A stretch of 64,000 nt of DNA from Aliarcobacter cryaerophilus (GTDB lineage: Bacteria > Campylobacterota > Campylobacteria > Campylobacterales > Arcobacteraceae), in contig NZ_CP060694.1 of NCBI RefSeq assembly GCF_014352935.1, positions 1,860,001-1,924,000 on the forward strand, in the 5' to 3' direction. Both the position numbers and the translations under genes were made by a program. Positions 21,261-27,470 of this stretch are shown here, piece after piece. The number at the start of each line of letters is the position of its first letter. The stretch's first letter is position 1. Below the pieces are notes generated by a model that was not told where the DNA came from, searched no databases, and was given only the letters and a program-made list of their open reading frames with translations.

Positions 21261-22145
21261 ATGAGACACCTAATTCGTACTTCGGACTTTACAAAAGAAG
21301 AGATACTCAAAATTTTTGATGATGCTAGAGAGTTTAAGAATAATAAATTTAGCAAACTCTTAGAGGGTAAAATCATTGTTACACTATTTTTTGAAAACTC
21401 AACAAGAACAAGAAGCTCTTTTGAAATAGCTGCAAAAAGATTAGGAGCTGAAGTTGTAAATCTTGATGTTGGTACCTCTTCACAAAAAAAAGGTGAAACA
21501 ATGTACGATACTGTTTCAAATATAAATGCTATGAACCCTGATGCTATAATTATTAGACATAGTGTTCACGGTCTTCCAGAGAGTTTGATAGGTTATGTTG
21601 ATTGCCCTATAATAAATGCAGGTGATGGAAGACACTCACATCCAACTCAAGCTTTTTTAGACCTTTTTACAATTAATGAATATTTTGGTGGAAAAACTGA
21701 AGGTAAAAAAATAGCAATTGTTGGAGATGTTAGAAATTCAAGGGTTGCTGGAAGTAATAGAAGATTACTTCCTAGATTTGGAATAGATGTAAATTTAGTA
21801 GCTCCTGATTGTTTTAAATATGAAGGTGATGAGTTTAAACAGTTTGATACAATTCAAGAAATAATAGATGATATGGATATTGTTATGAGTTTAAGAAGTC
21901 AACTTGAACGTCACAATATCACATATTTTGAATCACTTCAAGAGTATGCAAAAGATTTTTGCATTACAAGTGAATTAATGGAAAGAAAAGAGTTTTTACT
22001 TCTTCATCCAGGTCCAGTTAATAGAAATATTGATATTACTGATGAAGTTTTAAAACATCCAAGATGTAAAGTTTTAGAGCAAGTAACAAACGGAGTTGCT
22101 ATTAGAGCTGCTATATTAAAAAAATTAATCCTAGAGGATAGATAA
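21261..22145 (+). CDS. pyrB: Aspartate carbamoyltransferase catalytic subunit
   Basis: Makes carbamoyl-aspartate, the first committed step of pyrimidine synthesis. The 294 residues show the carbamoyl-phosphate site FENSTRTRSSFE, IIRHSVHGLPESL, the HPTQAFLDLFT loop and LLHPGPVNRNIDI. Length is slightly short but normal for Campylobacterota. Its TAA is directly followed by the probable AUA start of pabB, with the ribosome site for pabB inside the last pyrB codons. Confidence 0.96.
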   Translation: MRHLIRTSDFTKEEILKIFDDAREFKNNKFSKLLEGKIIVTLFFENSTRTRSSFEIAAKRLGAEVVNLDVGTSSQKKGETMYDTVSNINAMNPDAIIIRHSVHGLPESLIGYVDCPIINAGDGRHSHPTQAFLDLFTINEYFGGKTEGKKIAIVGDVRNSRVAGSNRRLLPRFGIDVNLVAPDCFKYEGDEFKQFDTIQEIIDDMDIVMSLRSQLERHNITYFESLQEYAKDFCITSELMERKEFLLLHPGPVNRNIDITDEVLKHPRCKVLEQVTNGVAIRAAILKKLILEDR

Positions 22146-23102
22146 ATAGTTACTAACTTTCAAGATATTCTAAATAAATCTGGCTCTTTAAAAGAGCCTT
22201 TTTTATTTTTAATCTCATATGATTTAAAAAAAACTTATATAGAAAAACTTCAAAATCTCTCACAAAATATAAAATTTGAAATAGATAGTAAAAATAAAAA
22301 AAATATAAAAGATTACAGTTTAAAAAAATATCCAATTAGTTTTGTTGAGTACGAAAAAAAGTTTGATTTAATTCAAGATGAGATAAAAAAGGGGAATAGC
22401 TATTTACTAAATTTAACTGCGCAAACAAAAATAGATACAAACCTAACTTTAGATGATATTTATGAAGCATCAAGCTCTTTATTAAAATTAAGAGTAAAGT
22501 TTGATGATTTAGATTTTGTTTGCTTTAGCCCAGAAAAATTTATAGATATAAAAGATAATAAAATCTATACATATCCTATGAAAGGAACTATTGATTCAAA
22601 TTTTGATGATGCAAAAAATATTTTACTAAATAATAAAAAAGAGTTAGCAGAACACACTATGGTTGTTGATTTGCTAAGAAATGATTTAGGAAAAGTTGCT
22701 AATAATATAAAAGTTGAAGAGTTTAGAAAATTTAGTAAAATAGTTACAAAAGATAGAGAACTTTTTCAAACAAGCTCAATTATTTCTGGAGATTTACAAA
22801 ATAATTGGCAAGAAAAAATAGGAGATATTTTATCAAATATTCTTCCTGCTGGAAGTATCACAGGTACTCCAAAAAAATCTACAATAGAAATTTTAAAAAA
22901 TATTGAAAACTATGATAGAGGATTTTATAGTGGAATTTTTGGTATTTTTGATGGTATAAATCTTCAAAGTTTTGTGCTAATTAGATTTATCGAAAATATA
23001 AATAATGAACTTTTTTATAAAAGTGGCGGTGGGATTACAAGTGATAGTACTGCAAAAGAAGAGTATGAAGAACTTTTAAATAAAGTTTATCTACCATTTT
23101 AA
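22146..23102 (+). CDS. pabB: Aminodeoxychorismate synthase component I, probable AUA start
   Basis: PabB makes 4-amino-4-deoxychorismate for folate. The frame is open from the base after the pyrB stop to TAA 23100-23102, about 318 residues. Conserved chorismate-enzyme motifs occur well before the first ATG (22578): EIKKGNSYLLNLT and FCFSPEKFI-like DFVCFSPEKF. After it come MKGTIDS, HTMVVDLLRNDLGKV and LPAGSITGTPKKSTIEIL. There is no ATG, GTG or TTG in frame before 22578, so the start must be non-canonical. ATA at 22146 has GAGGA at 22134-22138 with ideal 7-nt spacing; ATT at 22167 is the alternative. It could also be an ATG lost to mutation or a sequence error. Confidence 0.82.
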   Translation: MVTNFQDILNKSGSLKEPFLFLISYDLKKTYIEKLQNLSQNIKFEIDSKNKKNIKDYSLKKYPISFVEYEKKFDLIQDEIKKGNSYLLNLTAQTKIDTNLTLDDIYEASSSLLKLRVKFDDLDFVCFSPEKFIDIKDNKIYTYPMKGTIDSNFDDAKNILLNNKKELAEHTMVVDLLRNDLGKVANNIKVEEFRKFSKIVTKDRELFQTSSIISGDLQNNWQEKIGDILSNILPAGSITGTPKKSTIEILKNIENYDRGFYSGIFGIFDGINLQSFVLIRFIENINNELFYKSGGGITSDSTAKEEYEELLNKVYLPF

Positions 23103-23722: not shown

Positions 23723-24820
23723 CTATTTTACCATTTGCGAAAACTCTTGGCAAATACTAGAATTTGAAACTGGAGAGAATTCACTACTTAATTCATTTTT
23801 ATTTTTATATTTTAAAGCTACAGCACTGTCATTAAAAACTTTAATATGAGTTACATCTGCAATGTTTTTAATATCTTCACTTATTTTAAAATCACCATTA
23901 ATACCACAAATTTCTACTGTTTTTTCACCTCTAATAGGATGGCTTCCATACTTTATAGATTTAATCTTATCTACTTTTACACCACTTGCAAGTGCTAGTA
24001 AATAATGTCCTAGTCCAACTGCAAGAATTGGAATATTTGCGTCTATTAATTTTTTTATTTCAGCTATTTCATCAGTTAAAATGTTTGGATTTCCAGCTCC
24101 ACTACTTAGAACTACTCCACCTATTTTACCTGCTTTAAAATTATTAATTATATCATCTGCTTTTGTAGAAGCAGGAACTACTTCAACTTCAAATCCTAAC
24201 TCAACAAGCTCATTTAAAAATGATTTTTTAACTCCATAATCAATTACTTGAACTCTTTTATCACTCATTTGAGCTTTATTATACTCTCCTGTTTCATGAT
24301 TCCAAACACCTGATTTATGAATATAAGCCTCTTTAGTTGAAATATCTTTTACAAAATTGATTTCATCATATTTTTTTGCTTCATTTAATTTTTTTGCTAG
24401 TTCATCTTTAGAAGAGATTTGTGTAGATGCAATCATCATCATACTTCCCTCTTCTCTTACAATTTTTGTCAAGAATCTTGTATCAATATCACAAATTCCA
24501 ATAACATTTTGTTCTACTAAAAAATCTTTTAGACTCATTTCTGCTCTATAATTTGAGTAAGCATCATGATAATTTCTCACAATTATACCTTTTGCATGAG
24601 CTTTTGAACTTTCCATATCAACTCTATTTGCACCCGTATTTCCTATCTCTACAGCTGTAAAATTGATAAATAAACCATTATTTGAAGGGTCCGTAATAAT
24701 CTCTTGTTGTCCAAATGTTGAGTTATTATAAACCAGTTTTCCAACAGCAGTTGTATCTGCACCAAAAGAGTTTGCCTCTAAAAATATTCCGTTTTCTAAA
24801 TAAATATATACTTTTTGCAT
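23723..24820 (-). CDS. carA: CarA-family carbamoyl-phosphate synthase small subunit with lost glutaminase residues
   Basis: The chain of 365 residues has the CarA layout: an N-terminal CPSase domain (QQEIITDPSNNG, GICDIDTRFLTKIVREEGSM) and a C-terminal amidotransferase-like domain (VQVIDYGVKKSFLNELVELG, GGVVLSSGAGNP). The catalytic elbow, normally GICLGHQLL, reads AVGLGHYLLALASG, with Gly at about 269 where the Cys nucleophile belongs. The GHPEASPGP segment with catalytic His and Glu is replaced by EFSPVSNSS. It is therefore unlikely to hydrolyse glutamine. The start is ATG 24820, whose A overlaps the DUF507 TGA (TGATG); a TTG lies one codon upstream. It is last in the chain from 28582. A second carA may exist elsewhere. 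Confidence 0.85.
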   Translation of the reverse strand: MQKVYIYLENGIFLEANSFGADTTAVGKLVYNNSTFGQQEIITDPSNNGLFINFTAVEIGNTGANRVDMESSKAHAKGIIVRNYHDAYSNYRAEMSLKDFLVEQNVIGICDIDTRFLTKIVREEGSMMMIASTQISSKDELAKKLNEAKKYDEINFVKDISTKEAYIHKSGVWNHETGEYNKAQMSDKRVQVIDYGVKKSFLNELVELGFEVEVVPASTKADDIINNFKAGKIGGVVLSSGAGNPNILTDEIAEIKKLIDANIPILAVGLGHYLLALASGVKVDKIKSIKYGSHPIRGEKTVEICGINGDFKISEDIKNIADVTHIKVFNDSAVALKYKNKNELSSEFSPVSNSSICQEFSQMVK

Positions 24821-25371
24821 CAAATTAATCCTCTTTTTATTAACTCTTCTTCATAAAGTCTATGATAAACCAAATCATAGTCCTCTGTACCTGGAATTAG
24901 CTTTCTTTTATAGTTTTTAAGCTTAGCTAATACTTCACCATCTGCTTTTTCAAACCCTTTAATGAAATCATCCAAAGAACCAAATATCACATTTTTTATT
25001 TGGTTATCTGAACAAGTAAAATGTATATAATCCTCCTCCCATAGATAATCTAATATTTTGTGAGCAATATCAGAAAATCTATCTTCATTGTTTAAGATAA
25101 CTCCAAAATCATTTGCAAGTCTTTTTTTTGTCATCCAGAAAAGTTGTCTTCTATCAGCATTTAGATACTCTATCTCTTCTGTTTGAGAATCTAAAATCTC
25201 TTCTACTTTCTCATCTAAAGATTGCTCTTTTAGAATATCTTCATCTAAAATTCTTTCAACTTGCTCTTCTATACTGGCTTTATCTTTTCTTGCCTCTATA
25301 AAATCACAAGTTATTAAATCTCTTGTAATTCTTCTTGAAAGGTATGTAGTTTGGTGTAGCTTTAATCTCAT
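24820..25371 (-). CDS. DUF507 family protein
   Basis: The 183-residue protein matches the DUF507 family, with MRLKLHQTTYLSRRITRDL at the start, a Glu-rich middle (EEQVERILDEDILKEQ), and a repeat of the same fold (RRQLFWMTKKRLANDFGV). It is charged and helical with no catalytic motif. Its function is unknown. It sits one base downstream of purA and overlaps carA (TGATG), an arrangement also known in Campylobacter, so it is cotranslated with carA. Confidence 0.85.
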   Translation of the reverse strand: MRLKLHQTTYLSRRITRDLITCDFIEARKDKASIEEQVERILDEDILKEQSLDEKVEEILDSQTEEIEYLNADRRQLFWMTKKRLANDFGVILNNEDRFSDIAHKILDYLWEEDYIHFTCSDNQIKNVIFGSLDDFIKGFEKADGEVLAKLKNYKRKLIPGTEDYDLVYHRLYEEELIKRGLI

Positions 25372-25372
25372 T

Positions 25373-27470
<2,098 letters not shown>

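Follow-up and report, generated by a model that had tools for sequence, protein, structure and literature searches.

Carbamoyl phosphate from CarAB feeds arginine and pyrimidines, and glutamine has been named as the donor for all bacterial CPSases (PMC6245113). The window studied here, a 64,000-nucleotide stretch of the Aliarcobacter cryaerophilus genome (NZ_CP060694.1, positions 1,860,001 to 1,924,000), contains a carA gene whose product appeared to lack the residues with which glutamine is hydrolyzed. The question raised by this locus is where such an enzyme would obtain its nitrogen. The original prediction, made from the letters of the window, offered two answers: either CarB uses free ammonia with CarA retained as a scaffold, or a second intact carA exists and the copy in the window has taken on a new role.

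Glutaminase residues and fold of CarA

The carA reading frame (23723-24820, minus strand, 365 residues) is real and in frame. Its ATG at 24820 shares the sequence TGATG with the stop codon of a DUF507 gene (24820-25371, minus strand; open reading frame and Pfam match), and purA (25373-26623, minus strand; open reading frame and neighbourhood comparison) is the upstream neighbour. The order purA-DUF507-carA is identical in all members of the genus and family examined, including species with an intact CarA, and the coupling of carA to DUF507 had been correctly described as usual. Between the window and intact congeners, DUF507 is 80-87% identical and CarA approximately 52%.

Residue calls were made from an alignment of the window CarA with E. 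coli CarA and 49 relatives, and E. coli numbering is used throughout. The alignment bore out the predicted absence of the entire triad: Cys269 in the nucleophile elbow is Gly (codon GGA, 24014-24016, minus strand), His353 is Ser and Glu355 is Val. Also as predicted, SSGAGNP stands in place of the canonical SNGPGDP (24086-24106, minus strand; NGPGD to SGAGN) and the GHPE segment is gone, with EFSPVSNS replacing HHPEASPGPHES (23759-23782, minus strand). In addition, Gln273 is Tyr and the ASPGPHD loop has lost six residues, including Gly359, Pro360 and His361. Since nothing is left of the nucleophile, base or acid, and the glutamine pocket is partly lost, this CarA should be unable to cleave glutamine. 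A triad relocated elsewhere in the fold was also sought, and none is visible in the 13 degenerate CarA proteins described below; their sole invariant Cys, C110, is invariant in intact Campylobacterota CarA as well and has no nucleophile context. The pyrG product in the same window retains its glutaminase residues (GICLG elbow and HPE motif), in agreement with what had been claimed for it.

The expectation that the CPSase domain and the glutaminase scaffold are kept was likewise confirmed. Pfam matches place the N-terminal CPSase small-chain domain at 24434-24802 (minus strand; E 9.7e-38) and the degenerate class-I glutamine amidotransferase (GATase) domain at 23918-24247 (minus strand; E 2.3e-18). 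CarA passes NCBIfam NF009475 (248.6 bits, cut-off 221), and automatic annotation may for that reason still label it as carA; it falls below the cut-off of the glutamine-hydrolyzing model TIGR01368 (271.3 vs 307.35 bits). Of the features of a TIGR01368-type CarA it has the CPSase small-chain domain, the class-I GATase fold and a partner CarB, with Gly, Ser and Val at the positions of the Cys-His-Glu triad. An AF2 model based on a 51-sequence alignment has a mean pLDDT of 90 and a TM score of 0.91 to E. coli CarA and about 0.8 to human CPS1; an earlier model from the 13 clade sequences alone had a poor N-domain, which the deeper alignment resolved. The nucleophile elbow is kept in the model, with strand 265-268 followed by helix 270-278, and the nucleophile itself is gone.

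Distribution and selection

Exactly one CarA is encoded in 30 of the 31 genomes of the genus, and among these 30 the protein is degenerate in 13 and intact in 17. When scored with a profile of the degenerate form, the 13 reach 653-726 bits and the 17 reach 483-497. Gly at 269 and the same deletion are found in all 13 degenerate proteins, and Cys, His and Glu are kept in all 17 intact ones. In a species-level genome collection the triad is missing from only 4 of 80 CarA loci, namely those of Arcobacter cryaerophilus gv. crypticus (whose CarA is 92% identical to that of the window), Aliarcobacter vitoriensis, Arcobacter vandammei and an uncultured Aliarcobacter. In a CarB tree the 13 species with a degenerate CarA form one clade (SH-aLRT 100), and a single origin of the lesion therefore suffices.

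A base-calling error can be ruled out because the same lesion recurs in 12 other genomes of the genus, at 61-94% protein identity. We also rejected the possibility that carA is a pseudogene, given these 12 further genomes and a dN/dS near 0.1. There is no frameshift or stop in the carA of the 13 species and, in close pairs of the degenerate clade, dN/dS is 0.08-0.17 with both domains constrained; by these sequence measures, the degenerate carA is maintained by purifying selection. On deeper pairs the glutaminase domain appears looser (dN/dS of 0.36 in the degenerate clade vs 0.07 in intact relatives), possibly in part because of dS saturation. Within the clade, the CPSase small-chain domain has a mean identity of 77%, compared with 66.5% in the GATase domain.

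Search for substitutes

The second of the two predicted answers did not hold. A profile search of the complete genome for a second CPSase small chain gave none, there being one match only, and each CarA-bearing genome of the genus has one such match as well. The genome search for carB, which had been proposed alongside, yielded one full-length gene (1443 bits); carA and carB are separate genes lying approximately 0.6 Mb apart.

Seven class-I amidotransferase domains are present in the genome: those of CarA, TrpG/PabA, two HisH proteins, PurQ and PyrG, and a match at 964271. TrpG/PabA, both HisH and PurQ were assigned by profile, and the match at 964271 is read as GuaA on the size of its frame (523 residues). 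All seven are assigned to their own enzymes, which leaves the complete genome with no spare class-I glutaminase domain, and none of them is fused to or adjoins carB. The two hisH copies are located at G000:C1:1252673-1253257 and 1481996-1482583.

Carbamate kinase gave no match over the cut-off in the source genome or in 35 relatives. The enzymes that consume carbamoyl phosphate are both encoded: PyrB (aspartate carbamoyltransferase; 21261-22145, plus strand, NCBIfam profile match) in the window and an ornithine carbamoyltransferase. With its users present and no other source of carbamoyl phosphate, CarB is presumably working and, as the glutaminase of CarA is gone, it must obtain nitrogen in another way. 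The only other donor that the enzyme is known to accept is free ammonia (PMC6245113).

CarB in the degenerate clade and in lineages without CarA

The CarB catalytic and tunnel-gate residues that we checked are invariant in the degenerate clade. We defined a conserved CarB position as one shared by 90% or more of a reference set of 44 CarBs from CarA-bearing genomes, that of E. coli among them, and found 18 such positions altered in the clade. By domain, the counts (and shares of conserved sites) are carboxyphosphate 13 (5.5%), oligomerisation 4 (10.0%), carbamoyl-phosphate 1 (1.1%) and allosteric 0 (0.0%). CarA contacts the carboxyphosphate and oligomerisation domains of CarB (PMC6245113), and 17 of the 18 altered positions fall in these two. 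In the CarB of intact congeners about 0.1% of conserved sites are altered in every domain, a value that is lowered because the congeners belong to the reference set. Relative rates, for which other genera of the family served as the outside reference, are free of this bias: the clade diverged 1.88-fold as much as its intact sister group in the carboxyphosphate domain, and 1.08-1.13-fold as much in the other domains. The changes include Q262A, D278N, T279S and A323S; Tyr261 and Arg265 are retained. Position 262 is close to Arg265, which is reported from tunnel-perforation work to be a tunnel-wall residue.

In a phylum-wide search 372 of 397 genomes scored over the CarA cut-off, and some of those under it encode a full CarB and no CarA. 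We trusted only two CarA-less groups, g44 and g70, which include complete or near-complete genomes. The genus g44, probably Helicobacter-like by family placement, comprises five genomes without CarA alongside five with CarA. In the CarB of the former, 15.7% of conserved sites are altered in the carboxyphosphate domain and 31% in the oligomerisation domain; the corresponding values for the latter are 0.9% and 2.0%. CarA-less g44 CarB is altered at 65 positions, and these include 12 of the 18 Aliarcobacter sites (Fisher p = 9e-9); for the carboxyphosphate domain alone the figure is 8 of 13 (p = 4.5e-5). The p-values are a guide rather than exact, since the test assumes independent sites and the five g44 sequences are related by descent. 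The CarA-bearing congeners in g44 share none of the 18. Identical replacements, A323S and I352V, each occur in four of the five CarA-less g44 CarBs and in 0 of 44 CarA-bearing CarBs. In CarA-less CarB, Tyr261 and Arg265 are lost partly or wholly; the interface residues of Aliarcobacter CarB are less altered than this and adaptation to ammonia is therefore not proven. It is likely that the CarB of CarA-less g44 and g70 genomes is a stand-alone, ammonia-using enzyme.

General divergence was considered as the cause of the shared CarB changes and rejected, as L190, a divergent CarB whose genome does have a CarA match, showed no significant overlap (p = 0.15; 0.72 for the N-domain). We also rejected the idea that all CarA-less genomes represent independent losses: the CarB of five fragmented genomes lacks significant N-domain overlap with the Aliarcobacter sites, and because of this we read the missing CarA in these five as, probably, an assembly gap.

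Several other CarB genes deserve mention. Full-length CarB without a CarA match occurs in the complete or near-complete genomes G193, G216 and G245 (g44) and G372 and G378 (g70), at loci L202, L196, L201, L198 and L199, respectively, and the g70 CarB is strongly divergent. Two further genomes, G125 and G300 (carB loci L193 and L192), have weak CarA matches (about 1e-44 to 1e-46), and their CarB has 10-11 conserved sites altered in the N-domain and none in the carbamoyl-phosphate domain; these may represent a second, independent degenerate CarA, the gene for which was not located in the 200 kb of G125 and 600 kb of G300 scanned. In G050 (C1:32496-35375) the CarB match ends at profile position 941 within an open frame of 1817 residues, which suggests that CarB is fused to another protein or carries an insertion, for example an intein.

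Discussion

We consider it quite probable, on the strength of these genomic comparisons, that CPS in the Aliarcobacter clade now takes its nitrogen from free ammonia instead of glutamine, with CarA serving as a structural pseudo-glutaminase. This was the first of the two predicted answers and it fits all of the evidence; we infer ammonia use and a scaffold role for CarA from the following: (i) CarB is intact; (ii) its changes lie in the CarA-contacting domains; (iii) there is no other source of carbamoyl phosphate and (iv) CarA is under selection. In such an enzyme CarA would stay bound to CarB and support its ammonia-dependent reaction, hence the selection on carA, and its remaining role would be to keep CarB in a competent shape. 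The deletion of residues 359-361 probably opens the tunnel wall, in which case ammonia could enter from solvent near the subunit interface and would meet carboxyphosphate in the first ATP-grasp domain of CarB; the carbamate would then proceed through the almost unchanged second half of the protein. With rather less assurance, we lean towards the view that CPS in Campylobacterota exchanged glutamine for ammonia on more than one occasion, and that the same CarB positions were altered in parallel. In Aliarcobacter the glutaminase would have been killed and the subunit kept; in the Helicobacter-like lineage CarA would have been discarded, at least once.

Besides the lesser alteration of the CarB interface and the looser glutaminase domain, the distribution of urease speaks against the ammonia reading. 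Urease might have supplied the ammonia, but this was rejected because its distribution is the opposite of that expected (missing from 10 of 10 degenerate genomes tested and present in most intact ones). Specifically, urease alpha is present in 11 of 13 intact congeners and, in this respect, gene content differs sharply between glutaminase-dead and intact species.

It is conceivable, but in our judgement unlikely, that CarB is self-sufficient with ammonia and that CarA is a slowly decaying remnant without a role, at a step before the loss seen in the CarA-less Helicobacter-like lineage. The faster evolution of the glutaminase domain on deeper pairs fits slow decay of CarA as well, and related lineages do have a full CarB and no CarA. 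What speaks against a remnant is that 13 species have accumulated neither a frameshift nor a stop in carA, that dN/dS is about 0.1 in recent pairs for both CarA domains, that gene order and the TGATG overlap are maintained, and that the interface residues Tyr261 and Arg265 are kept in CarB when they are lost in CarA-less CarB. We see less reason still to suppose that CarA now does something that has nothing to do with CarB, such as sensing a metabolite or acting together with DUF507. A GATase fold retained without catalysis and tight coupling to DUF507 would suit such a role, but the coupling is not new, because intact species have the same DUF507-carA order, and the alteration of CarB in its CarA-contacting domains and the degradation of the glutamine-binding loop of CarA both argue against it.

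Slightly less probable again is a scenario in which another glutaminase subunit feeds ammonia to CarB in place of CarA. Class-I amidotransferase modules are swappable in principle and the genome has two HisH copies; against this, all seven class-I domains are accounted for and none is fused to or adjoins carB, in a search that covered class-I domains. Residual glutaminase activity of CarA through substitute residues is the least probable of the alternatives, to the point of being nearly negligible: the elbow fold is preserved in the model and H294 and C110 are conserved, but the elbow lacks a nucleophile in 13 of 13 sequences, and C110 and H294 are not replacements because intact enzymes conserve both.

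Set against E. coli CarAB, the ammonia-using CarAB that we propose has the same subunits, fold (by the TM score above), CarB catalytic residues and gene identity, and differs in that CarA is without Cys269, His353, Glu355 and tunnel residues 359-361 and misses the TIGR01368 cut-off. The E. coli CarA mutants C269S (structure 1c30) and G359F (1m6v) are laboratory changes at the same positions, whereas the Aliarcobacter loss is natural, multiple and clade-wide and is accompanied by CarB changes. A tunnel-blocked CPS reportedly loses glutamine use and keeps ammonia use, going by the title of Huang and Raushel 2000 (cited in PMC4655335); the tunnel-blocked enzyme is presumably G359F.

CPS1-like pseudo-glutaminases are already known, in vertebrates. 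Human CPS1 has an inactive glutaminase-like region, uses ammonia only and has its catalytic Cys replaced by Ser294; its ammonia uptake is thought to bypass the dead glutaminase, and every CPS type except CPS1 uses glutamine (PMC4655335). The degenerate CarA resembles vertebrate CPS I in that a glutaminase-like region is retained but inactive, with the catalytic Cys replaced. Unlike the bacterial enzyme, however, CPS1 has both halves in one fused polypeptide, requires N-acetylglutamate and serves the urea cycle, and its reported defect is a Cys-to-Ser change, whereas the degenerate CarA is missing the entire triad together with some of the tunnel wall. The bacterial pseudo-glutaminase is of independent origin and belongs to an enzyme of two separate subunits. 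A glutamine CPS has also moved towards ammonia independently in Alcolapia fish (PMC7657897); unlike the degenerate CarA, the fish CPS III keeps the triad, and it lacks one glutamine-binding residue. In the open-access literature that we searched, we found no earlier account of a bacterial clade whose CarA lacks the triad.

If the ammonia reading is correct, CarAB of this clade would be a bacterial counterpart of the step from CPS III to CPS I, and glutamine could no longer be called the donor of every bacterial CPSase. It would also mirror, in bacteria, how the vertebrate urea-cycle enzyme arose, the CarA-less lineage being a possible later stage. Bacterial CPS is the textbook ammonia-channelling enzyme, and the clade offers naturally evolved mutants that would be useful for studying ammonia entry, subunit signalling and the question of a leaky tunnel. 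Automatic annotation likely calls the degenerate proteins ordinary carA and, as a result, metabolic models may misassign the glutamine cost in species of the clade.

Finally, the gene that follows pyrB in the window is unusual in its start. This gene, pabB (22146-23102, plus strand), begins directly after the pyrB stop and in the same frame; its first ATG, GTG or TTG lies only at about residue 145 and its opening codons are ATA/ATT-like. The same pyrB-pabB arrangement is found in two relatives (L038 and L039), and translation of pabB possibly relies on a rare start codon or on read-through of the stop.
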